NCBI RefSeq assembly: GCF_003350375.1
Contig: NZ_QQAR01000002.1
Span: 248,001 to 312,000, forward strand
From: Flavobacterium sp. AG291
GTDB lineage: Bacteria > Bacteroidota > Bacteroidia > Flavobacteriales > Flavobacteriaceae
DNA: 64,000 nucleotides
Direction of reading: 5' to 3'
Of the stretch, positions 15,160-59,196 are shown piece by piece (the first letter of the stretch is position 1; every line of letters starts with the position of its first letter). The notes under the pieces are model-generated. The model was not told the origin of the DNA. It saw nothing but the letters and a program-made list of their open reading frames with translations, and did no database searches. The translations under genes and the position numbers were made by a program.

Positions 15160-15822
15160 ATGAAAGAGCATGTTTACAAATTAAAAATTCCAAAGGGCGA
15201 AACCTTTGAAAGCATCATGGACCAGCGGGAAAATGGTGCGCAGTTCATATATTATGAATATGTAATCCCCAGACCTATAATTGCTCCCGGTCGTGCAGTA
15301 TCAAAGATTTATTTTGTAAAAAAAGGTGATTCTAAAAGATATTATGCTAAATACAACCTCATCAATCTTATATGGGGGTGGTGGGGATTACCTTTCGGTC
15401 CTGTTTATGTATATCGGGTTGCAGCAAAAAACAGAAAGGGCAACAATATAACCGATGATGTTTATACAAATCTCAGTAAAGAAGACTTTGTAAAAGGGCG
15501 GGTGATTATCCGCAAAACATCTACCCTATTCCGCGATTTAGACAAATCTACACTCTCAGAACTTACTAAATGCTTTAAAAAAAATGTCGAGAGAAAAGGA
15601 AGATTTACAGCCAATCCTATTGCAGCATTATACATCGCATCTAAAACACCTACAATTTATGTTGGCCTTAACAGTGCTGATTATAATCGAAAATATGATC
15701 TTAAAAAGGAAGTTTATAACTACTTCTACTCTTATACTAAATTTGAATTCGTTGATCTCTCCGATACTACCGAAATTGTTAGCAAACTTAAAGAACAAGG
15801 CACTGCTTTAAATTGTAATTAA
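15160..15822 (+). CDS. Hypothetical protein, 220 aa
   Basis: A soluble, basic 220-residue product without signal peptide. A tryptophan-rich hydrophobic patch 'LINLIWGWWGLPFGPVYVYR' in the first third looks like a membrane-contacting or buried strand pair. The second half ('TPTIYVGLNSADYNRKYDLKKEVYNYF') resembles a small alpha/beta domain. I do not recognise the family. It ends overlapping by 4 nt the stop of the convergent lycopene cyclase gene, with no terminator in between. Confidence 0.6.
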   Translation: MKEHVYKLKIPKGETFESIMDQRENGAQFIYYEYVIPRPIIAPGRAVSKIYFVKKGDSKRYYAKYNLINLIWGWWGLPFGPVYVYRVAAKNRKGNNITDDVYTNLSKEDFVKGRVIIRKTSTLFRDLDKSTLSELTKCFKKNVERKGRFTANPIAALYIASKTPTIYVGLNSADYNRKYDLKKEVYNYFYSYTKFEFVDLSDTTEIVSKLKEQGTALNCN

Positions 15823-16538
15823 TTATCTGAATCAGTATTGATTTGAATTGATGAAGGAAACTTAGTTAGTAATCCAAAAATGTAAATATTCAACAAAAAC
15901 ATAACGTAGCCGTAAATAAAGTCTTCAATCGGGATTGTAAGTATACGTAACCCAATTATTTCCTCAGAATTATAATTTACAATAGCACTTTCCAATCCTG
16001 TACCTGTAAGAGTTCCATTTACAGGAATAAACCCTAGCATTAATATAAGATATATCAGTGAAGCTCTGCCAAATAATTCATATCTGGTAATCAGACCTAA
16101 ATAAGCAACAGTAACAATTGTTACTATTGCCGTAACTGCCGTATATATTTTATTGTAAAAAATAAAGAAACCCGTAATGCTTACTGTTAGCACTACAAAG
16201 ATTATTAGTTTACTCAATTTCTCAGCCCACTTTAAATCGAAAAACTTTAGAAGGCAATAATATGTAAAAACACAGGAGAATGGTATACAAATAAAAAAAA
16301 GCCATTCTTCAACAGGCATCCCTATTATACTTATTCCTAAAACATAATCCTGATTAAACCACCATACCCCTGAATTTGTAAACCAAGCATCCCAAAGTAT
16401 AAACGGTATAGCAACAGTTGCACTTGTTTTTATAAAAGCACCAAAATATTTATCGAATCTTATCTTTGGATGAAATGAGAATATAAAACAGACAACAATA
16501 GTCAGGAAGTTAATGAGTAAATATGTGTATGGTTTCAT
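15819..16538 (-). CDS. Lycopene cyclase (CrtYcd-type, fused two-domain)
   Basis: The 239-residue protein has six or seven membrane helices and two copies of the small-cyclase motif: 'MPVEEWLFFI' near residue 74 and 'IPIEDFIYGYVMF' near residue 200. The paired PxE(E/D) sites mark the fused heterodimeric CrtYc-CrtYd type of lycopene cyclase, which turns both psi ends of lycopene into beta rings to give beta-carotene. It is the last gene of the carotenoid operon, overlapping crtZ by 4 nt. Product assignment rests on family knowledge plus the operon context. Confidence 0.88.
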   Translation of the reverse strand: MKPYTYLLINFLTIVVCFIFSFHPKIRFDKYFGAFIKTSATVAIPFILWDAWFTNSGVWWFNQDYVLGISIIGMPVEEWLFFICIPFSCVFTYYCLLKFFDLKWAEKLSKLIIFVVLTVSITGFFIFYNKIYTAVTAIVTIVTVAYLGLITRYELFGRASLIYLILMLGFIPVNGTLTGTGLESAIVNYNSEEIIGLRILTIPIEDFIYGYVMFLLNIYIFGLLTKFPSSIQINTDSDN

Positions 16539-16996
16539 TTGTTGTCTTTGTTAAAATACATTTTAAAATACTTTACAGGAACCCAAAGAAACCCAAAACA
16601 TTCACCATCATGTTTCCCCGTATGTTTATGATGCTGTTTGTGAGCACGCCTGATAGCTAATAAATAAGGATTTTTTGTTTTCTTTAGAAAACCAATTCTT
16701 TGATGTATGAATATATCATGAACAAAAAAATAGGCCATCCCATAAATTGAAATTCCTAATCCAATGTAAAATAAGTAATTATAGCCCTGAATTGCACCTA
16801 CATACATTAAAGCAATCGCAGGCACAGCAAAAATTACAAAGAAATAATCATTACGCTCGAAGTGACCATCAGTGCTATGGTCATGATGATCCCTGTGTAG
16901 TACCCATAGAAATCCGTGCATTATATATTTATGAATAACCCAGGTTAAGCCTTCCATAATAAAAAACACACTTATTATTATTAAAAATCCCATCAT
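16535..16996 (-). CDS. crtZ: Beta-carotene hydroxylase
   Basis: A 153-residue integral-membrane di-iron hydroxylase of the fatty-acid hydroxylase superfamily. The histidine clusters are visible in order: 'HKYIMH', 'HRDHHDH', 'HDIFIHQR' and 'HKQHHKH'. It adds a hydroxyl group at C3 of each beta ring, giving zeaxanthin through cryptoxanthin. It overlaps its neighbours by 4 nt on both sides, so translation is coupled. Confidence 0.92.
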   Translation of the reverse strand: MMGFLIIISVFFIMEGLTWVIHKYIMHGFLWVLHRDHHDHSTDGHFERNDYFFVIFAVPAIALMYVGAIQGYNYLFYIGLGISIYGMAYFFVHDIFIHQRIGFLKKTKNPYLLAIRRAHKQHHKHTGKHDGECFGFLWVPVKYFKMYFNKDNK

Positions 16997-17442
16997 TCTT
17001 TAGATTTTAAGCATTCTTTAATCATCTTCTGAAGTGTTTCCGATTTTATGTCTGAACCGCTATATCTGATAATTTTTTTGTCCTCTTCAATATTATTACT
17101 GTAACCAAGAAATTTAGGGGCATTAAGCTGAACTGAAAGCCTTATAAAACGTATTTCCGTATCAGACGGAGACTGAGCTACAGACTCTTCAATATTTGCT
17201 TTACCTTCCTTAAAAGTTTTTAGTTTTTCGAATGGGTTTAGCGTATGTTTAGCCCAAATAGTTTGAAACGCACCCAGATAAGCAATCCTGATTGGCTCTC
17301 TATCATTTCTAAGTTTATATATCATTTCTTTGCACAGTAACTTATTAGTTGCCGCTTGCGAATAATTATATCGGATATCCTCCAATTCCTGCGAATAGCA
17401 AACGGAAATCAAACTACACAATAATACACAAAATATCCTCAT
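16993..17442 (-). CDS. Conserved exported protein inside the carotenoid operon, function unknown
   Basis: A 149-residue product with a signal peptide ('FCVLLCSLISVCYSQ') and a helical mature domain: 'AYLGAFQTIWAKHTLNPFEKLKTFKEGKANIEESVAQSP' looks like a TPR-like helical hairpin, and 'TEIRFIRLSVQLNAPKFLGY' follows. It is embedded between crtB and crtZ with 4-nt overlaps on both sides, which strongly ties it to carotenoid production or placement. It has no recognisable enzyme motif. Because it is periplasmic while the pathway enzymes act at the inner membrane, a role in pigment export, insertion or sensing is possible but unproven. Confidence 0.8.
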   Translation of the reverse strand: MRIFCVLLCSLISVCYSQELEDIRYNYSQAATNKLLCKEMIYKLRNDREPIRIAYLGAFQTIWAKHTLNPFEKLKTFKEGKANIEESVAQSPSDTEIRFIRLSVQLNAPKFLGYSNNIEEDKKIIRYSGSDIKSETLQKMIKECLKSKE

Positions 17443-18275
17443 ACATTAGCTACTTTATACTTTACATAGCTTCTCATCATCAATGAAATTTTTTGCGTGT
17501 TAGGTATCCTTATACGGGCATTTAGAATTTGCTGAGCCGGAGTATTGCATATTTTCTTTAAAAGCGACAGATAATATCTGTACGCCAGATAAACCCCAAA
17601 ACGCGATGAAACCGGTAACTTCTTTATACCAATAAGCGCTTCGGCAAATTCCTGTTTTATTTCTTTCTCAATACAGCATTTTACTTCGTTATTAAATTCA
17701 TTCATATCAACATTAGGAAAATAAGTGCGTCCTAAAACGGAATAATCATCTTTAAGATCCCTTAGGAAATTTACTTTTTGAAACGCCGATCCTAACTTCA
17801 TTGCAAAAGGCTTTAACTCATCATATTTTTCCTGGCATCCCTCTACAAAAACCTTTAGACACATAAGCCCAACAACCTCAGCTGATCCCAAAATATATTC
17901 CTTATAAAGTTCGGTATTATAATCAACCGGATTAAGATCCATTTCCATACTTTTCAAAAACTGATCTATAAGATCAAGACCAATTTCATATTTATGAACT
18001 GTTTCCTGAAATGAATTAAGGATAGGATTTAGTGAGATCTTTTCATTAAGAGCCTCAGTTGTCTGTAACCTTAAACGGGCTATTAAAGCTTCTTTATCAT
18101 AATCATGAAAACTGTCTACTATTTCATCCGCCAAGCGTACGAATCCATAAATAGCATAAATAGCCGGTCTTATCTCTGGTTTAAGGGCCATGATCCCCAA
18201 CGAAAAACTTGTGGAGTATTTTTGGGTTGTAGCCTTACTAACCTGATACGAGAGGTCATCAAATAGTTTTTTCAT
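17439..18275 (-). CDS. crtB: Phytoene synthase
   Basis: The 278-residue squalene/phytoene synthase family enzyme joins two geranylgeranyl diphosphates head to head. The first aspartate-rich motif is 'LADEIVDSFHDYD' and the second is 'VNFLRDLKDD', followed by 'GRTYFPN'. The start is ATG at 18275, overlapping the 3' end of crtI by 17 nt. Second enzyme gene of the operon. Confidence 0.95.
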   Translation of the reverse strand: MKKLFDDLSYQVSKATTQKYSTSFSLGIMALKPEIRPAIYAIYGFVRLADEIVDSFHDYDKEALIARLRLQTTEALNEKISLNPILNSFQETVHKYEIGLDLIDQFLKSMEMDLNPVDYNTELYKEYILGSAEVVGLMCLKVFVEGCQEKYDELKPFAMKLGSAFQKVNFLRDLKDDYSVLGRTYFPNVDMNEFNNEVKCCIEKEIKQEFAEALIGIKKLPVSSRFGVYLAYRYYLSLLKKICNTPAQQILNARIRIPNTQKISLMMRSYVKYKVANV

Positions 18276-27618: not shown

Positions 27619-27731
27619 CACAATTGGCAAAGCATAGACAATGCTTTATTTTCTCAACTTCTCGTTAAAAACTTTATCATGACCGTTATATTTTCATAAA
27701 TTTATAGCTATTGCACCCTTATTACATCCTT

Positions 27732-29510
27732 ATGAGACCTTACCTGCAAAGAACAATATACTTTATCGCTTTATTAATACTGAGCCTGCTACCCTATAAT
27801 ACTGCAGCCCAGTTATTGAGTGCTACAAAATCGCAAACTGAGGAAACCCCTAAAACTGAACCGGACTCATTAGGCAGACGTACGCCACAGGGCACCGTAA
27901 ACGGTTTTATAAAAGCGATTTCAGAAGAAAAATATGTCAGGGCAAGTCAGTATCTGGTATTAAGCAGGCGTTCCTACAGGAAAGAAAAAGAAAGGATTCG
28001 TATAGCACAGGCATTTCAGCGCTTACTGGATCAGAGAGGCGACATGGAAGTAACATCATCCATAAGCAATAAAGAAAGCGGCAAAACCGATGACGACCTA
28101 CCTCCCGGAATTGACAAAGTAGGAACCATTACTACCAACAATACAGTTATCAATATTTACATAGAAAACCAATCTGAAGACGATAAACCGGCGCTTTGGT
28201 TATTCTCCGATGAAACCGTTAGTGCCATTGCCAACGCCACTATTGACGATGACACCTTTTTAGACAGGATTTTACCCACTACATTAAAAGAACGTAAGCT
28301 TGGCGGAGTTCCGGTTGGTCACTGGCTTGTGGTTGTGGTAATGACATTACTATGCTATATGGTTGCCTGGGGTATTGTTTCACTAATTAGTTTTATCCTG
28401 ACATTAGTATGGCCAAAAGCCCGTACCGAAAAGATAACCGCAATTATAGAAGCATTCAACCTGCCTGTACGCTTATACCTTGCGGTATGGATTTTTATAA
28501 GTGCAACACAACGTATGGGAATTTCAATTATAGTCCGCCAGCGTTTTAGTGTAATTATCGTTACCATAGCCATCGTATCGTTTTTGATGCTGCTATGGAG
28601 ACTTGCCGATCTTCTGAGTATTTATACTAAAAGGAGAATGACCGAAAGAGGGCGTATCTCTGCCATATCTGTAATACTCTTCCTAAGGCGTACAACCAAA
28701 GCCGCAATAGTAATTGCCGGAATCATTGCCATATTAGGTGCAATAGGCGTTGACGTTACTGCAGGACTTGCAGCATTGGGAATTGGGGGTATCGCATTAG
28801 CATTGGGGGCACAAAAAACCATGGAAAACTTTGTGGGCAGCGTTTCGCTTATTGCCGACCAGCCTTTAAGGGTAGGCGATCTTTGCAAGGTAGGTGATAT
28901 CAAAGGAACAGTAGAAAGTATTGGGATGCGCTCAACAACACTACGAACAGCCGCCAGAACGATAGTAACCATTCCTAATGGCGAACTTGCTGCCAGTAAA
29001 ATAGAGAACATGGCCCATCGTGATCGTTTTTTGTTCAATCCTGTTCTTACATTCAGGATGGAAACCACACCGGACCAATTACGATTTCTGTTAGTTGAAA
29101 TTAGAGCATTACTGTATTCTCACCCCGGAATCTTAAATACCCCCCCAATCGTACGCTTTACAGGAATTACAGCCGATGCCATGAAAGTTGAGGTTACTTC
29201 ATATATTGAAGCCAACAACTTTGACGATTCTCAGGAAGTACAGGAAGATCTTTTGCTTCGTATTTTAGATATCATTGATAAAAGCGGTACAGGACTCGCC
29301 TACCCTTCTCAAACTATTTATTTTGCAAAAGACTCAGGCAATTCTGCCGAAAAAACCTCTCAGGCCGAAGACACCGTAAAACAATGGAAAGAAAAAGGCG
29401 AACTCCAACTCCCTAAATTTGATCCAAAACACGTCGCGGAAATCAAAGGAAGTATAAGATATCCCGAAGAAGGGAGTGTAGTGAAACCGAGCGAAGAGAA
29501 CGAATTATAA
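27732..29510 (+). CDS. MscS-family mechanosensitive channel with periplasmic extension
   Basis: The 592-residue protein begins with a signal-like helix and a 150-residue extracytoplasmic domain. Four membrane helices follow (about 205-232, 255-275, 283-300, 325-345), then the MscS pore helix and beta domain: 'LAALGIGGIALALGAQKTMENFVGSVSLIADQPLRVGD' region, 'GTVESIGMRSTTLRT' and 'VTIPNGELAASKIENMAHRDR'. It should open under membrane tension to release solutes on osmotic downshock. A TTG at 27711 is in frame but the ATG at 27732 places the signal sequence correctly. It converges with the histidine kinase gene with only 13 nt between. Confidence 0.9.
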   Translation: MRPYLQRTIYFIALLILSLLPYNTAAQLLSATKSQTEETPKTEPDSLGRRTPQGTVNGFIKAISEEKYVRASQYLVLSRRSYRKEKERIRIAQAFQRLLDQRGDMEVTSSISNKESGKTDDDLPPGIDKVGTITTNNTVINIYIENQSEDDKPALWLFSDETVSAIANATIDDDTFLDRILPTTLKERKLGGVPVGHWLVVVVMTLLCYMVAWGIVSLISFILTLVWPKARTEKITAIIEAFNLPVRLYLAVWIFISATQRMGISIIVRQRFSVIIVTIAIVSFLMLLWRLADLLSIYTKRRMTERGRISAISVILFLRRTTKAAIVIAGIIAILGAIGVDVTAGLAALGIGGIALALGAQKTMENFVGSVSLIADQPLRVGDLCKVGDIKGTVESIGMRSTTLRTAARTIVTIPNGELAASKIENMAHRDRFLFNPVLTFRMETTPDQLRFLLVEIRALLYSHPGILNTPPIVRFTGITADAMKVEVTSYIEANNFDDSQEVQEDLLLRILDIIDKSGTGLAYPSQTIYFAKDSGNSAEKTSQAEDTVKQWKEKGELQLPKFDPKHVAEIKGSIRYPEEGSVVKPSEENEL

Positions 29511-29523
29511 ATATTAGATATAC

Positions 29524-31122
29524 TTAAACAGGCAAATAAACATCTATGGTAGTGCCTTGATTTGGAATACTTGAAATCTCGATACTACCGTGGTGATTTT
29601 CGATGATCTTTTCACATAAAGCCAGACCGATGCCCGTACCTTCATATTCACTCTGGTGATGAAGCCTTTTAAAGATGGTAAATATTTTAGAAAGGTGTTT
29701 TTCTTCTATACCTATACCGTTATCAATCACAGCTATTTTATGAAAAAATTGTTGTTTTTTTTCAACTTTATCATAGTTTATAACAACCTTTGGCTTGCCC
29801 TCAACAAATTTTAGTGAATTGCCTATAAGGTTATAAAACAACTGGCTTAACTGTATAGGTATACCCTGTATAACAGGAAGTTCTGCTACTGTAATAGCAG
29901 CATTTTTTTCTTCAATCTGAAATTCAAAATCACCTATAACCTCGTTTAGTACAACATTGAGGTCGACTGCAGAAAAGCTTCTGTCATCAACAGAAAGCTT
30001 AGAATAATTAAGTACATCGGTTATAAGGCGCGACATACGTTCGGCAGAAGAATTAATTTTATTAAAATACAGTTTCTCTTTCTCTTCTTCAGACAGGTTA
30101 CGCTCAGCTAAAGAGGTGAAGTTTCGTATTTTACGTAAAGGTTCCTGAAGATCATGGCTTGCTATATAAGCAAACTGTTCCAGTTCCTTATTCTTTTTGG
30201 ACAATTCGGCATTTGAAGTTTTAAGATTTTCCTGTGCCTGCCTTAACTCTTTATTGTCTTTTAATGTTTCTTCAACAAGTTTTTGGGCATGGATATTAAC
30301 CATCGATATAATGTAACCAAAAACATCTCCGTTTTCATTATTATCAGGTACTATGGAAATAAGGTGCCAAAGGTATTCATCTTTACTGCTTATTCTGGCC
30401 TGTCCTGAAAAACTGCTACCTCTTCGTTTCACAGTATCCCATGCATTACTCATCATTGCAATATCATCGGGATGAAAAACAGTAGCTATGGAAGTTTGCG
30501 TAAAGCTATTGAAACCTGAACCAAAAACCTCATTAACTCTTTTGTTGGATAATGTAACTGCGCCCGTTGCAGTAACCGAAAACACCAATAACGGCAGTGT
30601 ATCTGTAAGTTGCCTGTATTTAGATTCGCTTTCGCTGAGTTTTTCTGAAAGCTCAATCAGTTGTATGTTCTTTTTACGAAGCTCATCATAAGGAGAAAAT
30701 GATATTTCTTTTTTAAAATAGTCAATAAAAGAGGCTATTCTAACAGGAGAAATTATACCTGAAAAAGGAATTTTAAGATTTAGCAGTATCTCATAAACCC
30801 CATTATGATGCCTTTTTACAATTTCCTTTGATAAACGGGAGGCATAGGCATAAGCCTCAGGGTTGCATTTTTCAAGATCAACCCCATCAGTTATTACAGC
30901 CGTAATTTCCTTCTTTCCTCCACTTAAAAAAGTAATTCCTAATTTAAGATTAGAGTTTTCTCCGTAAGCAATGGAACATCTTGCAATTTCAGAAACAGCA
31001 GTAGCAAACCTCGTTTGAGCCGAAAGCATTAGTCCGCACAATTCTGCCAGCTTCATGGTGCGTTTATGCGCCATGATCAGATCCATTTCATTATCGAGAT
31101 TTATACGTACTATTTCTTCCAT
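29524..31122 (-). CDS. PAS sensor histidine kinase with RsbT-like N-terminal domain (stressosome output)
   Basis: The 532-residue protein has three parts. Residues 1-140 resemble an RsbT-type anti-sigma/ATPase fold ('LMLSAQTRFATAVSEIARCSIAYG', 'ITDGVDL'), although its ATP-binding glycines look degenerate. A PAS domain spans about 165-290. After a coiled coil, the phytochrome-type HisKA box 'FAYIASHDLQEPLRKI' and HATPase boxes 'NLIGNSLKFVEG', 'VIDNGIGIEEKHL' and 'GTGIGLALCEKI' follow. No membrane helix is present. As the last gene of the rsbR-S-T operon, abutting the phosphatase gene, it is the likely output that turns a stressosome signal into phosphotransfer. No response regulator lies beside it. 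Confidence 0.88.
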   Translation of the reverse strand: MEEIVRINLDNEMDLIMAHKRTMKLAELCGLMLSAQTRFATAVSEIARCSIAYGENSNLKLGITFLSGGKKEITAVITDGVDLEKCNPEAYAYASRLSKEIVKRHHNGVYEILLNLKIPFSGIISPVRIASFIDYFKKEISFSPYDELRKKNIQLIELSEKLSESESKYRQLTDTLPLLVFSVTATGAVTLSNKRVNEVFGSGFNSFTQTSIATVFHPDDIAMMSNAWDTVKRRGSSFSGQARISSKDEYLWHLISIVPDNNENGDVFGYIISMVNIHAQKLVEETLKDNKELRQAQENLKTSNAELSKKNKELEQFAYIASHDLQEPLRKIRNFTSLAERNLSEEEKEKLYFNKINSSAERMSRLITDVLNYSKLSVDDRSFSAVDLNVVLNEVIGDFEFQIEEKNAAITVAELPVIQGIPIQLSQLFYNLIGNSLKFVEGKPKVVINYDKVEKKQQFFHKIAVIDNGIGIEEKHLSKIFTIFKRLHHQSEYEGTGIGLALCEKIIENHHGSIEISSIPNQGTTIDVYLPV

Positions 31123-32139
31123 TTATAGATTTATTTTGGCAGCAAATACTGTCATGTCATCATTGTGTCGTGCATTATCTTTATAAAGTACAGCAGCTAT
31201 TACATTAGGATCAAATTTTAAGATTCCCGCTAACTCGGAAAGATTCCATCTTGTACGCAAGCCATCGGAATGCATTATAAGCGTCTGGTACTTTTCAAGA
31301 TCTTGTACAGAATCATTAATAGTCCGGGGAATGTTATGCCCTATTATACCATTGTAAGGTGTATAATTCCTGGCTGATAATCCTGTATAAATACTTGTGG
31401 ATATATTACCTATACCGCATAACATCCATTTTTTTGCCTCAAAATCTAAATATACTACCGTTGCAACAAGCCCGCGTGTTTTTTTAACCTGTTGATTAAT
31501 ATACCTTAATACTTCTGACGGACTCTGTTCTTTACAATCCTTAAATGCTTTAATTGCTTCTTCAGCAGCTTCGTGTGCATTTATACCGTGCCCCAGCCCA
31601 TCTCCCATAAAAAACTGATATCCATTACCAAATCTTTTAACGGCATAGCCATCACCACACACTTTCTCTCCGGGACAACACACCTGTACTGCACCAATAT
31701 CTATGTTTTTTTTTAAGGCGGAAGGATTGAAATCTTTTGCATATATTTTACTATGCACTAATGTCCCCCACCCTTTATTTGTAAAAACACTTGATGTATG
31801 GCTTAAGCGCTCAATTGCACCAAGTCCTTGTCCAAGGGTATCTGACGTAGATATTCCGTCCTGTCGCATCCTGGCAAGATTAGAAATCCCCTTACCATTA
31901 TCAATACAATATATTTCAAAAAAAGGGCCGTTTTCATCAGAACTTACCCTGTATAAAAGCTCACCTTCTTCTGCAAATTTTACAAGATTGGATGTTAATT
32001 CCGAAACTACAATATCAATTTCTCCTACTTTCTGTGAACTAAATCCCTCGCCAACCACAAGAGTATGTATTTCTCTTTTCACATAAGACACATAACTCCT
32101 GTCATCTATTTTGTAGTTCAATAAGACTTTATCAGCCAT
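31123..32139 (-). CDS. RsbT-RsbX fusion: ATPase domain plus SpoIIE/PP2C phosphatase
   Basis: The 338-residue product has an N-terminal GHKL ATPase of RsbT type (about 1-135: 'VVSELTSNLVKFA', 'CIDNGKGI', 'GQGLGAIERLSH'). A C-terminal PP2C-like phosphatase follows with the metal ligands visible in 'FMGDGLGHG', 'MHSDGL' and 'HNDDMTVFAAKI'. The family analogue RsbX removes phosphate from RsbR and RsbS and resets the stressosome. Its 5' end overlaps rsbT by 8 nt and its stop abuts the kinase gene. Confidence 0.87.
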   Translation of the reverse strand: MADKVLLNYKIDDRSYVSYVKREIHTLVVGEGFSSQKVGEIDIVVSELTSNLVKFAEEGELLYRVSSDENGPFFEIYCIDNGKGISNLARMRQDGISTSDTLGQGLGAIERLSHTSSVFTNKGWGTLVHSKIYAKDFNPSALKKNIDIGAVQVCCPGEKVCGDGYAVKRFGNGYQFFMGDGLGHGINAHEAAEEAIKAFKDCKEQSPSEVLRYINQQVKKTRGLVATVVYLDFEAKKWMLCGIGNISTSIYTGLSARNYTPYNGIIGHNIPRTINDSVQDLEKYQTLIMHSDGLRTRWNLSELAGILKFDPNVIAAVLYKDNARHNDDMTVFAAKINL

Positions 32140-32569
32140 TCTTCCATTTTATTATTGTCACTGTGGTTCCTTCACCTTCAGCTGATTTAATATCAAATTC
32201 ATTTACAAGCCTTTTTGTTCCGGGCAGGCCTAACCCCAGACTTTTGCCTGTACTGTATCCATCTTTCATGGCCAGGTCTATATCCTTTATACCAGGGCCT
32301 TTATCGGAAAATCTCAATAAAATTCCATTTTCACGACCATTGGTTACAGACTCTATCTCAACAGTACCTCCACCGCCATATTTTAGCAGGTTTCGCACTA
32401 ACTCGCTGGCAGCAGTAATAAGTTTGGTCTGGTTCAGTATACCCATACCTATTTTTACTGCTTCCTCTTTGACCTTATTCCGGAAGGGAACAACATCCTG
32501 TTCGCGAACTATAACAAAATCGAGTTTATTCAGTGTTGTTGTTCTCATCATAATAACTTTGGCCTTCAC
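32132..32569 (-). CDS. rsbT: RsbT-like serine kinase (stressosome switch protein)
   Basis: The 145-residue GHKL protein shows the N-box 'ASELVRNLLKYGGGGTVEI', G1 'FSDKGPGIKDIDLA' and G2 'GYSTGKSLGLGLPGTKRLVNEF'. In Bacillus, RsbT phosphorylates RsbR and RsbS, leaves the complex and activates its downstream target. The start could be the first ATG at 32569 or the later ones at 32551/32548; the latter give the more usual length and overlap rsbS by 23-26 nt rather than 44. Confidence 0.9.
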   Translation of the reverse strand: MKAKVIMMRTTTLNKLDFVIVREQDVVPFRNKVKEEAVKIGMGILNQTKLITAASELVRNLLKYGGGGTVEIESVTNGRENGILLRFSDKGPGIKDIDLAMKDGYSTGKSLGLGLPGTKRLVNEFDIKSAEGEGTTVTIIKWKNG

Positions 32570-32927
32570 TTAATAAAATTTTTGAACGCAAAAGTTCCAT
32601 TCCTTTTTCAACATTAAGCGCAGTAGAAACACCCGTAAGCGTAAGCCCTAGTTCTACCAAAGTCATTGCTACTGCAGGCTGCATACCTACAATAACGGAC
32701 TGAGCCCCCATAATTCGGGACATAATACCTATATTACCAAGTATACGCCCCATAAAAGAATCAATGATTGAAACCGAGGAAATGTCAATAAGAACTCCTT
32801 TAGAGTTATTTTTTTTTACAGCATTTACAAGATCGCTCTCCAGATTTTCGGCTAGCTGATCGTATAAATCTACCTGTATGGTGACTAATAAAAAATCACC
32901 CATTTTTAAAATAGGAATTCTCTCCAT
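32526..32927 (-). CDS. rsbS: RsbS-like STAS protein (stressosome core)
   Basis: The 133-residue single STAS domain protein is very close to the Bacillus RsbS plan: 'VTIQVDLYDQLAENLESDL', then 'IDSFMGRILGNIG', whose Ser57 corresponds to the Ser59 phosphosite, and 'VGMQPAVAMTLVELGLTL'. RsbS and RsbR build the icosahedral stressosome shell that holds RsbT. It lies 4 nt after rsbR and overlaps rsbT. Confidence 0.92.
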   Translation of the reverse strand: MERIPILKMGDFLLVTIQVDLYDQLAENLESDLVNAVKKNNSKGVLIDISSVSIIDSFMGRILGNIGIMSRIMGAQSVIVGMQPAVAMTLVELGLTLTGVSTALNVEKGMELLRSKILLSEGQSYYDENNNTE

Positions 32928-32931
32928 TAAT

Positions 32932-33783
32932 CTAGCTGTTTATAAAATTTCCTTTCTTTTTATTCACTTCAAGCTGTAGCATATTAAATGCGGTTTGAAG
33001 CGCACTTGCCAAGGTAGATTTTGTTATGATATTAGAAAGATCTATACCTAAATGTACAACGATTTGTGCAATTTCCGGCCTGATACCGCTGATGATACAT
33101 TCAGCACCCAACAATCTCGTTGCACTTACGGTCTTAATAAGATGTTGAGCCACTAGTGAATCAACCGCCGGCACACCTGAAATATCAAGAATAGCAATGG
33201 TACTTCCCGTCTCCACAATTTGTTGAAGCAGATTCTCCATTACTACCTGAGTCCTCGCACTGTCAAGCGTACCAATTATTGGCAGAGCAACAACGCCATC
33301 CCACACACGGATAACGGGAGTAGAAATTTCAGTAATCTCATCCGTTTGCCTTGATATTACATCTTCGCGTCCCCTGATAAAAGCTTCAAATGTAAGTATG
33401 GCCATATTATCTATGATCTTGCTTACTTTTAAGCTATCTTCATAAAGTCTTACCGGATCAGTAATTTCTTTTGAAAGCGTTTCTAAAAGAGCTTCCTTGA
33501 ATGTAAACATATAAACTCCTGTTTCCCTTGGTGTAAAACCTCGTTTAGCCCTTGAAACAGAAATACCCATGAGTACATCATGAACTTTTTCAAACGACCT
33601 TGCATCCTGGTCATTAATATTAGTATCATTTAACGCGCTTAAAAAAGCACTGACGAAATCTTCAGAATCTTCCTTTTGGTCGTCTGCGTTAAAATAACTG
33701 TCCTGAGCCATTTGTTTTGAAACCCAAAGTTCAAGAATGGCATCTTTTTTTTCTTTCAAAATTTTTACTGATTTATCTTCCAT
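32932..33783 (-). CDS. rsbR: RsbR-like stressosome sensor protein
   Basis: The 283-residue protein has a helical N-terminal sensor domain (about 1-150, resembling RsbRD_N or non-haem globin-like domains) and a C-terminal STAS domain (about 162-275). The two phosphorylation positions of Bacillus RsbRA (Thr171, Thr205) correspond to Ser175 in 'GTLDSART' and Ser209 in 'VPAVDSLVAQH', so both are serines here. It is the first gene of the five-gene unit. A TATCTTTG promoter element lies 78 nt upstream of the start. Confidence 0.9.
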   Translation of the reverse strand: MEDKSVKILKEKKDAILELWVSKQMAQDSYFNADDQKEDSEDFVSAFLSALNDTNINDQDARSFEKVHDVLMGISVSRAKRGFTPRETGVYMFTFKEALLETLSKEITDPVRLYEDSLKVSKIIDNMAILTFEAFIRGREDVISRQTDEITEISTPVIRVWDGVVALPIIGTLDSARTQVVMENLLQQIVETGSTIAILDISGVPAVDSLVAQHLIKTVSATRLLGAECIISGIRPEIAQIVVHLGIDLSNIITKSTLASALQTAFNMLQLEVNKKKGNFINS

Positions 33784-33861: not shown

Positions 33862-33869
33862 CAAAGATA
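33862..33869 (-). promoter_or_regulatory. -7 promoter element (TATCTTTG) of the stressosome operon
   Basis: Perfect TAnnTTTG match on the minus strand with a TTTG 15 nt further upstream (33885-33888), giving an untranslated leader of about 70 nt before rsbR. Confidence 0.45.
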
Positions 33870-33907: not shown

Positions 33908-34408
33908 TTACTTATAACTTATTACATTATAATTTTTGTTCAAATTAATTCTCTTCACAAAATACCCTTCAACATCCTGCGATGTGGTGAACGGAACATT
34001 AACAAGCTTACCCTCTGCATTATGTACAGCACCATACACCACGAAGTTTTTGGTAATCTCGATAAGATTACGGGAAAGAAACATACGGTAAAGACGCATC
34101 TTGACCGTGTTATTGCTCCCAAAAAGTACATAGGCTTTAGGATAGACCGAACTAAAGATATAAACCGAGTATACTACCGTATTGATAACCTTATTCCAAT
34201 CGCTATTATTACTTAGGTTAATATCGTCTACTTCAACAGTAGTATCATCATTAAAGATAATATCCCCAAGACCAAGGTTATACACATTCTCATTTAGCGT
34301 TTTAGAATATTTCACAATTTTATATATGCTACCGCTCTTACCGTCACTGGTAAATTCAAAGACGGTAAAGTCCCCGTTAGAAGAGAGTTCATATTGAGAT
34401 CCTTCCAT
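33908..34408 (-). CDS. DUF6934-like hypothetical protein
   Basis: A 166-residue soluble protein with an antiparallel beta look ('FTVFEFTSDGKSGSIYKIVKYSK', 'VEGYFVKRINL') and a central conserved-looking segment 'SVYPKAYVLFGSNNTVKMRLYRMFLSRNL'. I think it belongs to the DUF6934 group found in Bacteroidota, but this cannot be confirmed by eye. Its TAATTTTG element (34414-34421) ends only 5 nt before the ATG, so it is a second short-leader candidate. It lies upstream of rsbR but should be separately transcribed. Confidence 0.6.
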   Translation of the reverse strand: MEGSQYELSSNGDFTVFEFTSDGKSGSIYKIVKYSKTLNENVYNLGLGDIIFNDDTTVEVDDINLSNNSDWNKVINTVVYSVYIFSSVYPKAYVLFGSNNTVKMRLYRMFLSRNLIEITKNFVVYGAVHNAEGKLVNVPFTTSQDVEGYFVKRINLNKNYNVISYK

Positions 34409-57011: not shown

Positions 57012-58517
57012 ATGAAAAAGTGGCTGCACAAAAATATTGTTTATGTAATTGCAATAGTAATTTTGGTTACCCTGTTTATACAGGTCTACTGGAACATTAA
57101 GAATTACGAAGCAAATAAAATCACTGTGAACAACGAGGTAATGGCAGCACTTAACAATAGTGTGGATAGCTATTATACCAATCTGGCAAAATCAGATATT
57201 AAATCAACTATAGTACATGAAGAATTACCGGAGAATCAAAAGATACCGAAAAACATAGAAATGCTGATAGACAGCCTCATTAAAACTGCACCGGAAACCA
57301 CCGGAGTGATTTCTCAGGATTTAAAAACAGGAACTATCATTAATGTAACAACCATAGATTCTAATGGAAACAGTCTGCCTCCGGAAGTGGCGCAGATGCT
57401 TAAAATCAAAAATATGCCCGGATCGGTTACGGCAACAGGTACAATTGAATCAAAAGACAAAGATTCGTTGCAGGGATTAAATAATCTCGCAACAAAAATT
57501 ATAATATCGTTATCGTTAGATGAGCTTGATTTTAAAAGCCTGAACAAATACCTTAAAGATGAACTTAAAAGAAAAGACCTGAATTTTAATTATGCACTAT
57601 CACATATTAAAGAAGATGGCAAACCTATAAATTATGGCGATGTAAAAAATCCTGAATATCAATTATCGGTTGATTCAAAATCAGCCTACTTACCTTCAGG
57701 AACATATATTAAGATGTATTATCCCAATATCAATCTTATAGCGCTAAAAGAGGGTTTGGCAGGAATACTTTTATCATTTGTATTTACTATAGCTATTATT
57801 ACCAGCCTGATTTACCTTTTAAGGATTATAAGACAGCAAAAGCAGATTGTTTTAAGCAAGAACGATTTTATAAGCAATATATCCCACGAACTTAAAACAC
57901 CAATTGCAACATCGCTTAGTGCATTGGAAGCAATCCAGCATTTCAATGCAGCTGACGACAAAGACAAGACCGATAAATATATGGGTATAGCCTCACAGCA
58001 ACTTCAAAAGCTGAATGTGATGGTAGAAAAAATATTGGACACAGCATCTTTAGACAGTGACAGGATAGCGTTGCAAAAAGAAATGACAGACATAGTTCCT
58101 ATCATAAATAATGTAGTAGAAAAATATCTTCTCAACACACAGAAAGTAATATCATTTATGCCGGAAACCAAAATTTTGCTGGCTAACATCGATGCATTTC
58201 ATTTTGAGAACGTGGTTAACAATATTATAGAAAATGCCATTAAATATGGTGGTAATACAATAACCGTTAAAGTAGCTCCGGCTCATAAGCATGCCATAAT
58301 AACATTTTCTGATGATGGTAAGCCTATTGATAAATCGCAGCGCAGTAAAATTTTTGACAAATTTTACAGGATATCAACACAAAACAGGCACGATGTAAAG
58401 GGGTATGGTATTGGCCTGTACTATTCTAAAAGCATAATTGAAAAACATAACGGTAAACTTACCCTTGAAGATGATGATAAGTACACAGTATTTAAAATAA
58501 CTATTCCTTATGTCTGA
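57012..58517 (+). CDS. Membrane sensor histidine kinase
   Basis: The 501-residue protein has helix 1 at about 8-28, a periplasmic sensor domain (about 29-245) of unknown ligand, helix 2 at about 250-270, then HisKA 'DFISNISHELKTPIATSL' with His292. The HATPase boxes are 'NNIIENAIKYGG', 'FSDDGKPI', 'IFDKFYRIS' and 'GYGIGLYYSK'. The stop overlaps the response-regulator start by 8 nt, so the two proteins form a two-component pair. It lies next to polysaccharide-degrading genes, which are its likely but unproven targets. Confidence 0.93.
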   Translation: MKKWLHKNIVYVIAIVILVTLFIQVYWNIKNYEANKITVNNEVMAALNNSVDSYYTNLAKSDIKSTIVHEELPENQKIPKNIEMLIDSLIKTAPETTGVISQDLKTGTIINVTTIDSNGNSLPPEVAQMLKIKNMPGSVTATGTIESKDKDSLQGLNNLATKIIISLSLDELDFKSLNKYLKDELKRKDLNFNYALSHIKEDGKPINYGDVKNPEYQLSVDSKSAYLPSGTYIKMYYPNINLIALKEGLAGILLSFVFTIAIITSLIYLLRIIRQQKQIVLSKNDFISNISHELKTPIATSLSALEAIQHFNAADDKDKTDKYMGIASQQLQKLNVMVEKILDTASLDSDRIALQKEMTDIVPIINNVVEKYLLNTQKVISFMPETKILLANIDAFHFENVVNNIIENAIKYGGNTITVKVAPAHKHAIITFSDDGKPIDKSQRSKIFDKFYRISTQNRHDVKGYGIGLYYSKSIIEKHNGKLTLEDDDKYTVFKITIPYV

Positions 58518-59196
58518 TAAAATTAAAATAGTTTTAGCTGAAGATGAACCTTCACTGGCACTGATAATTAAAGAAAGCCTCGAAACAAGGAATTTTGAGG
58601 TTATTGTAACCGAAGATGGTGACCAGGCCTATAATACCTACATTTCAGAAAAACCGGAGTTGTTGGTTCTTGATGTAATGATGCCTAAAAAAGATGGTTT
58701 TACAGTAGCTGAAGAAATAAGAAAACAAGATAAAAGAATACCTATCATTTTTCTAACTGCCAAATCGCAAACCCAGGATGTGGTAGATGGCTTTAAACAC
58801 GGAGGTAACGATTACCTGAAAAAGCCTTTCAGTATGGAAGAGCTTATCGTAAGGATTCATGCATTATTAAACAGAGTTGAAAACAACCAGGGTAGTGATG
58901 ACGGATTGACCCATATTGGTGGATATATATTTGACTACGCTAAACAGTCACTTACCTATGATGGAAATACCGAAGTACTAACCTACCGTGAAGCCGAGGT
59001 ATTGAAACACCTTTACAGCACTAAAAACGAAATGGTTACAAGATCTCATATTTTAAAAGAGATATGGGGTGATGATGATTTTTTTAATGGACGAAGCCTA
59101 GATGTTTTTATTACCAAACTTCGAAAAAAACTCGACAAGGACAAAAATGTCCAGATAATCAATAGCCGTGGATATGGCTATAAGCTGATTTGTTAA
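58510..59196 (+). CDS. OmpR/PhoB-family response regulator
   Basis: The 228-residue regulator has a receiver domain with 'EDEPSLALIIK', phospho-acceptor Asp55 in 'LLVLDVMMPKKDG', 'LTAK' and Lys104 in 'YLKKPF', followed by a winged helix ('LTYREAEVLKHLYSTKNEMVTRSHILKEIWGDD', 'IINSRGYGYKL'). It pairs with the overlapping kinase gene. No terminator lies between it and the CE2 gene 107 nt downstream. Confidence 0.94.
   Translation: MSDKIKIVLAEDEPSLALIIKESLETRNFEVIVTEDGDQAYNTYISEKPELLVLDVMMPKKDGFTVAEEIRKQDKRIPIIFLTAKSQTQDVVDGFKHGGNDYLKKPFSMEELIVRIHALLNRVENNQGSDDGLTHIGGYIFDYAKQSLTYDGNTEVLTYREAEVLKHLYSTKNEMVTRSHILKEIWGDDDFFNGRSLDVFITKLRKKLDKDKNVQIINSRGYGYKLIC

Follow-up and report, generated by a model that had tools for sequence, protein, structure and literature searches.

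The rsbRSTUVW-sigB-rsbX operon of Bacillus subtilis combines the stressosome genes rsbR, rsbS and rsbT and the gene of the X phosphatase with a sigma-B cascade. Other holders of the rsbRSTX module have no sigma-B, and sections of PMC9237108 name Bacteroidetes and Deinococci among them, with kinase/receiver phosphorelays as one of eleven downstream architecture types; RsbU_N outputs, RsbU_N-histidine kinases included, are noted in parts of that paper and of PMC12143880. A histidine kinase as stressosome output is already published, and the wiring of Gram-negative stressosomes to non-sigma outputs is an open question in the field. Here we analyzed a window of 64,000 nucleotides from Flavobacterium sp. 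AG291 (contig NZ_QQAR01000002.1, positions 248,001 to 312,000), in which five minus-strand open reading frames (ORFs) lie nose to tail; their products are RsbR, RsbS, RsbT, an RsbX of two domains and a histidine kinase with a PAS domain. The unusual part is the N-terminus of the kinase, which, as judged from sequence profiles and a structure model, is RsbT-derived with a predicted RsbT/RsbW-like GHKL fold.

The locus was compared with the described systems. It shares R, S, T and the X phosphatase with B. subtilis, but its output is a histidine kinase, and neither an RsbU_N domain nor a SigB-type sigma factor was detected: RsbU_N gave no match in this genome, the B. subtilis control being positive, and the best SigBFG match reached 109 bits against a curated cut-off of 234.35 bits. 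Since both searches remained negative, the Bacillus RsbU-RsbV-RsbW-SigB route was not seen in this genome, in agreement with a preliminary description of the locus that had placed a kinase where a sigma cascade was expected. The Vibrio vulnificus type, as presented in sections of PMC9237108, likewise lacks a sigma-B cascade and has genes of signalling proteins after R, S, T and X, but its phosphatase is single-domain and its output is without RsbU_N, whereas here both RsbX and the kinase carry RsbT-like domains. The same sections already contain the idea that RsbT might phosphorylate a downstream sensor kinase and state that a positive interaction of Vibrio RsbT with the adjoining two-component protein was not obtained; a CheY-like gene beside a Vibrio brasiliensis operon is mentioned in part of PMC4976288. 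The RsbU_N-kinase outputs resemble our locus in that a PAS kinase whose N-terminus is a coupling domain comes after RsbT; in them, however, this domain is RsbU_N, the kinase is of the HisKA_3 type (six scanned), the neighbours are receiver-GerE proteins (six scanned) and RsbX is single-domain in the 13 loci that have all of R, S, T and X. Finally, plasmid MP1 of D. radiodurans R1 (DR_RS15570-DR_RS15595) carries R, S, T, two-domain X and an RsbT-kinase in the same order; unlike the Flavobacterium protein, however, its kinase retains the N box, DQGPG and GMGVGL in the RsbT domain and is a hybrid with a receiver, without a PAS match at E values up to 0.001, and the next gene encodes a receiver-kinase protein. 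Neither an RsbT-like domain on a kinase in general nor an eroded copy of RsbT in particular was met in the literature searched, which did not cover Figure 3 of PMC9237108 and the older Pane-Farre reviews (2005, 2017), and no priority is claimed.

The N-terminus of the kinase was recognised as RsbT-related through profile comparisons. No Pfam match started before residue 174 up to E 0.1, the RsbU_N candidate being rejected at the same threshold, and none of the best 25 of 80 NCBIfam matches began before residue 137. A profile of RsbT from which kinase sequences had been kept out matched residues 1-62 with an E value of 6e-7, and a profile-profile alignment (hhalign) of the domain with RsbT extended over 72 columns (residues 7-79) with E 1.7e-6; the additional RsbX domain reached only 0.045 and was thus discarded as its source. 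The AlphaFold2 (AF2) model of the domain had a mean predicted local distance difference test (pLDDT) score of 90 and its best structural match was RsbW 6m37 (Foldseek 1.2e-5), with Z 14.1 and a root-mean-square deviation of 2.1 over 107 residues for residues 1-119. Further matches were SpoIIAB (Z about 12-13), UsfX and Rv1364c (about 12), SiaB-SiaC 6kko (10.4) and LvrC 9qih (9.6), other histidine-kinase ATPase domains showing Z values below 8; several of the RsbW/SpoIIAB matches are structures solved together with anti-anti-sigma partners. The sequence evidence for RsbT ancestry covers residues 1-79, and beyond residue 79 the assignment rests on the fold (1-119).

Phylogenetic trees led to the same grouping. 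The kinase-borne domains formed one clade apart from the RsbT and RsbX domains, comprising 22 of 60 rows (support 97/98) and, in a second such tree, 27 of 43 rows (98/93), while the extra domains of RsbX also formed a single clade (100/99 and 100/100, respectively). In an initial tree that preceded these two, 20 of the 21 rows from kinases were grouped (98/95) and only the long-branch L205, a Bacteroidota locus outside the class of Flavobacterium, fell outside; owing to this long branch, its kinase and RsbT rows were excluded from the 60-row and 43-row trees. Eroded kinase domains shared one clade with intact RsbT-kinase fusions, and a single origin of the degenerate domain was not rejected (approximately unbiased test, p-AU 0.369), so that erosion may have occurred once or several times.

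The loss of motifs was evaluated on an alignment of 83 kinase sequences, consisting of the window protein, those of 80 named loci and the kinases of loci L064 and L065. The glycine motifs D.GPG or G[LMI]G[LIM] were found within residues 60-130 in none of the 83 sequences, the ATP lid appeared as a gap, and the N-box Asn position 49 was occupied by C 53, N 7, H 6, T 6, Y 4, S 3, L 2, I 1 and M 1. From its sequence, the domain is therefore best described as an RsbT in degenerate form, in which the canonical motifs for ATP binding are missing. The preliminary description was right in calling it RsbT-like, as profiles, fold and trees indicate, but had overlooked this erosion. Fourteen positions among residues 1-170 were identical in all 83 kinases, and Q36, T37, T41, A42, S44, E45 and R48 were invariant. 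Mean conservation was 0.81 for residues 9-52, 0.53 for residues 53-120 and 0.78 for residues 143-170; RsbT was evenly conserved over the matching regions (0.85 and 0.84). We took the switch-helix numbering of B. subtilis RsbT to coincide with that of the kinase N-domain. In this domain, position 19 is H and position 23 is M in 81 of the 83 sequences each, and position 24 is K in 74; these letters differ from those of B. subtilis RsbT. Residues 19, 23 and 24 of the latter are implicated in RsbU binding in a section of PMC12143880, and the conserved helices 1-2 of the kinase correspond to the region of these RsbU-contact residues. This pattern suggests that a docking surface was preserved while catalysis was lost; because the nucleotide motifs are gone, the kinase copy might dock on the shell but probably does not phosphorylate it. 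The proposal that three proteins of the unit compete for the shell, which assumed equal RsbT-like domains, is not supported in the form in which it was worded.

The remainder of the kinase appeared intact. Linker residues Y145, E147 and N152 were present in 83 of 83 sequences, the H-box pattern in 81 (the misses being L064 and L065) and G1 of the core (D.G.G) in 82, the only miss being L163, a frame of only 389 amino acids; G2 was of the GTG.G type in 36 of 83, the others having, for example, GNGIGL. In the window protein both HisKA and HATPase_c scored above the Pfam cut-off and the H, N, G1 and G2 motifs were present.

The other members of the unit have the features of an RsbRSTX module as far as sequence allows to assess, namely an RsbR with sensor and STAS domains, a STAS protein RsbS with the Ser residue, a motif-complete RsbT and a PP2C-type RsbX. 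The RsbT motifs SE[LI].RN, D.GPGI and G[LI]GLPG each occurred in 81 of 81 sequences, and D56-S57-F58 of RsbS was identical in the same number, so that Ser57 is a candidate phospho-acceptor, putatively equivalent to B. subtilis S59. RsbR position 209 was S in 74, T in 6 and a gap in one of 81 sequences, and position 241, which is I in the window protein, was T in 74, I in 6 and a gap in one; from the flanking motif we assume that these positions correspond to B. subtilis T171 and T205.

RsbX carries, in front of its phosphatase domain, the extra RsbT-like domain that the preliminary description had also noticed, and the alignment with RsbT (Table 1) bears this out. The Pfam HATPase_c_2 match (8e-6, 26.2 bits) was just below the 27.4-bit cut-off. 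The ATP motifs of this domain are retained, with N51 in 81/81 sequences and D80, G82, G84, G103, G105 and G107 in 80/81 (one gapped row), and the PP2C motif DGLGHG (180-185) was likewise found in 80/81 (one gapped row). The closest solved structures were 3zt9, named SpoIIE (4.5e-16), and 3w40, named RsbX (2.7e-12).

A scan of named genomes returned 178 relatives, and the counts of loci given here refer to the best 80, to which a few genomes contribute two loci. The preliminary description had made its case depend on the kinase and the rsb genes being conserved together, and R, S, T and X were indeed found upstream of the kinase in 80 of the 80 loci, with the kinase starting at most 20 nt from X in 78 of them. 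These loci include Flavobacterium, Emticicia, Chitinophaga, Dawidia, Parachryseolinea, Spirosoma, Larkinella, Fibrisoma, Flavihumibacter and others, all of which we take to be genera of Bacteroidota. The same order was observed in 21/21 loci of an overlapping set (L045-L065), 13 of whose 21 kinases were identical to named ones over the compared stretch. Within the genus the unit is patchy, occurring in 15 of 199 genomes, our own included, and some Flavobacterium genomes hold two units (L045 and L046 of G237, which are L105 and L113; L118 and L148; L119 and L145), those of F. hungaricum lying about 21 kb apart on one contig. In a phylum sample of 395 genomes the kinase N-domain search matched 11 genomes and the RsbT search 17. 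Among the former, G537 and G708 were matched through plain RsbT and G525 through an intact RsbT-kinase. All eight own-class genomes of this sample with a strong RsbT (E < 1e-40) possessed the kinase domain; a ninth own-class RsbT match, G680 (6.6e-11), had no rsbR or rsbS adjoining.

Taken as a whole, the reading that we favour, at about even odds, is that the stressosome shell controls the kinase directly, as a client that docks through its pseudo-RsbT and signals by phosphotransfer. In unstressed cells the pseudo-RsbT would sit on the STAS subunits of RsbS and RsbR at the site of RsbT and hold the kinase in one signalling state, in whichever direction the control may run. When RsbR senses stress, true RsbT would phosphorylate RsbS Ser57 and RsbR Ser209, and the kinase and RsbT would then be released from the shell. 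The resulting change of state may be relayed through the conserved helical linker and the PAS domain to the HisKA core and the phosphate passed to a receiver, adjoining in some relatives and encoded elsewhere in this genome, while RsbX, which its RsbT-like domain would bring to the shell, would reset the phospho-sites. The Bacillus step in which RsbT binds RsbU would thus be replaced by an RsbT fused to the output enzyme. The kinase activity of RsbT is reportedly separable from target activation, according to the title of a study by Kang, Vijay and Price. With an RsbT-derived domain of its own, such a kinase offers a physical connection between shell and output that is specific enough to be tested.

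A different arrangement was found outside the class of Flavobacterium, where 23 Bacteroidota loci were read and an RsbU_N kinase lay beside rsbT in 18. In 13 of these it was accompanied by R, S and T together with an X of one domain (L067, L093-L096, L203, L204, L206, L207, L209, L212, L213 and L216), in two by R, S and T, no X being found (L211, L215), and in three only T was found (L068, L097, L214). Nine kinases were scanned with Pfam: those of L063, L064 and L066 did not match RsbU_N, and the remaining six all showed RsbU_N and HisKA_3, with L093 at 25.0 bits against a cut-off of 25.5; the other RsbU_N assignments rest on a profile seeded with seven such kinases, L096 among them. The regulators adjoining RsbU_N kinases contained receiver and GerE domains in 6/6 scanned, which indicates DNA-binding proteins. 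The phylum therefore displays, in RsbT-kinases and RsbU_N kinases, two ways to wire the same sensor to the same output type. L208 encodes an RsbU_N protein in which no kinase core was found. L210 combines S, T and X with three STAS proteins of the RsbR type and has no kinase in view, and in L204 a second RsbU_N-kinase core-receiver hybrid (15402-17579) lies about 5 kb from the stressosome unit. Intact RsbT-kinases with a two-domain RsbX were present in L066 (G525) and L202 (G747), and L205 combines an eroded RsbT-kinase with a short RsbX, so that a strict pairing of two-domain RsbX with RsbT-kinase was rejected and only a tendency remains.

Proteins of this GHKL fold, for example RsbW and SpoIIAB, form dimers, and the pseudo-RsbT might instead be a receiver for free RsbT, the pairing rigidifying the linker as RsbT does with RsbU. 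We regard this as unlikely, although it preserves the logic given in a section of PMC12143880, in which released RsbT activates a linker-coupled enzyme, and fits both the conserved linker and the fact that most kinases outside the own class carry RsbU_N, the receiver of RsbT, at the same spot. An RsbT-derived domain is, however, most simply expected to bind RsbT's own targets, and the intact fusions (L066 and L202 in Bacteroidota and the four below) resemble equivalents of RsbT rather than receivers.

These four fusions came from a search of plasmids. The N-domain of the window kinase gave no match there, and the intact L202 kinase reached other phyla with 1,964 matched records, of which 24 have one place covering at least 80% of the query; partial-query matches can be ordinary kinases. 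Nine loci were read among the best 25 of the 1,964, H2-H16 being D. radiodurans. Intact RsbT-kinases were found in D. radiodurans MP1 (L225), Deinococcus sp. KNUC1210 (L227), D. psychrotolerans (L233, whose record begins at the kinase) and Paraburkholderia (L232), and eroded ones in Caballeronia (L226), Nonomuraea (L230) and Embleya (L231), the remaining two of the nine being the Variovorax loci treated below. In the eight of the nine loci with upstream DNA in view, the kinase comes after R, S, T and a two-domain X. The RsbT-kinase fusion is widespread and its RsbT part often reduced. The broader statement, that a pseudokinase RsbT docks the kinase on RsbS/RsbR so that a Ser/Thr switch sets a His-Asp phosphorelay without RsbU, and that the fusion is old and cross-phylum (Bacteroidota, Deinococcota, Pseudomonadota, Actinomycetota), with the RsbT copy worn to its binding helices in whole lineages, is advanced tentatively, at slightly under even probability.

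The eroded domains in other phyla, and the two Variovorax loci that have none, could also be accommodated if RsbT transiently phosphorylated the kinase on Ser/Thr, the N-domain being the leftover of an old fusion. Such phosphorylation is proposed for Vibrio vulnificus and for outputs without RsbU_N in sections of PMC9237108. Nevertheless, a leftover would be expected to decay evenly, yet residues 9-52 keep a mean conservation of 0.81 and 14 positions among residues 1-170 are identical in all 83 kinases, and we judge this explanation quite improbable. That the kinase is a mere neighbour with an independent PAS-sensed job, sharing only a transcript, is very improbable, since, ordinary as each of its core domains is, it has an RsbT-derived N-domain and the unit is retained in 80/80 loci and in other phyla.

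The preliminary description had also called for a search for a linked response regulator, which succeeded in some relatives but not beside the kinase in this window. A receiver protein started between -19 and +49 nt from the end of the kinase in 18/80 loci, none of them titled Flavobacterium, so that a regulator always beside the kinase was rejected; the one adjoining the L156 kinase, the only one Pfam-scanned, is a lone receiver. Within 2.5 kb of the kinase a receiver was found on the same strand in 21/78 loci and on either strand in 23. The only receiver found in the window (58510-59196) lies beside another kinase, the pair occupying 57012-59196 on the + strand.

Several observations weigh against the kinase being a shell client that docks through its pseudo-RsbT. 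D79, aligned with the adenine-contact Asp, is retained in 76/83 kinases and, together with the N-box Asn kept in seven, makes some nucleotide binding possible, and helices 1-2 could have been conserved for dimerisation, or for a contact with RsbT instead of RsbS. No receiver was found beside the kinase within the 64-kb window, and in the only control the 2.5 kb preceding rsbR contained receivers in 10 loci (75/80 loci have that much DNA there), because of which some downstream receivers may be chance neighbours. Moreover, the kinases of Variovorax L228 and L229 start near the coiled coil without any RsbT-like domain; therefore, docking through this domain is not universally needed. Both loci retain R, S, T and two-domain X and are natural comparisons for docking. 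Testing is practical, since the unit occurs in D. radiodurans R1 and in several Flavobacterium species that are in culture.

The features of the unit are listed in Table 1. The ORFs and Pfam matches substantiated the contiguous, overlapping arrangement of rsbR, rsbS, rsbT and the RsbT-RsbX fusion ahead of the PAS kinase: rsbR and rsbS are separated by 4 nt, rsbS and rsbT overlap by 23 nt and rsbT and rsbX by 8 nt, and the kinase gene abuts rsbX. The start of rsbT was taken as the ATG at 32548, the alternative being the GTG at 32569 given in the ORF list.

Table 1. Coordinates of the features of the stressosome-kinase unit within the window.
Feature	Position	Strand	Details
rsbR	32932..33783	-	283 amino acids (aa); RsbRD_N-type N-terminal domain + STAS; Pfam RsbRD_N 3e-18, STAS 7e-15
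rsbS	32526..32927	-	133 aa; single STAS; Pfam STAS 4e-10; Ser57 in DSF motif
rsbT	32132..32548	-	switch serine kinase; N, G1, G2 boxes; Pfam HATPase_c 4e-13
rsbX	31123..32139	-	338 aa two-domain phosphatase; Pfam SpoIIE/PP2C 4e-11 + sub-cut-off HATPase_c_2
RsbX N-terminal RsbT-like ATPase domain, ATP motifs retained	31735..32139	-	hhalign to RsbT E 2.5e-26
RsbX PP2C phosphatase domain	31126..31704	-	Pfam SpoIIE residues 172-336; PDB match from residue 146
Histidine kinase gene	29524..31122	-	532 aa: pseudo-RsbT, helical linker, PAS, HisKA, HATPase_c
Kinase pseudo-RsbT domain (predicted), residues 1-120	30763..31122	-	RsbT profile, hhalign, AF2 fold
Degenerate N box of the kinase RsbT-like domain, residues 41-49 TAVSEIARC (Asn -> Cys)	30976..31002	-	alignment column 49
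Conserved helical linker, residues 143-169, pseudo-RsbT to PAS	30616..30696	-	helix 144-169 in AF2 model
Kinase PAS domain	30283..30603	-	Pfam PAS_3 7e-7, also PAS_9, PAS_4
Kinase HisKA domain, H box SHDLQEP	29995..30183	-	Pfam 8e-12
Kinase HATPase_c catalytic domain	29530..29859	-	Pfam 3e-23
Candidate promoter element TATCTTTG (TANNTTTG)	33862..33869	-	86 nt upstream of rsbR

The consensus of the candidate promoter element TANNTTTG is as we assume it to be. An element of this type was also found at -83 to -87 upstream in L099-L102 and somewhere in 35/81 upstream stretches, whereas mononucleotide shuffles, which are a weak control, would give 8.5; the other 46 of the 81 stretches scanned had none. 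On the 3' side of the kinase a converging gene on the opposite strand (27711-29510) is presumably MscS-like, as judged by eye. Directly upstream of rsbR and on the same strand lies a DUF6934 gene (33908-34408, Pfam 6e-39), which was rejected as a member of the unit, being present in the flanks of 0/80 relative loci. Genes which we take to be DUF892-like were found in the flanks of 13/80 loci and catalase genes in those of 7/80 (L103, L106, L109, L112, L113, L165 and L173), and in Paraburkholderia L232 (6753-11191) katE and two Hsp20 genes lie 3' of the unit on the opposite strand; these neighbours are possible stress-regulon genes.

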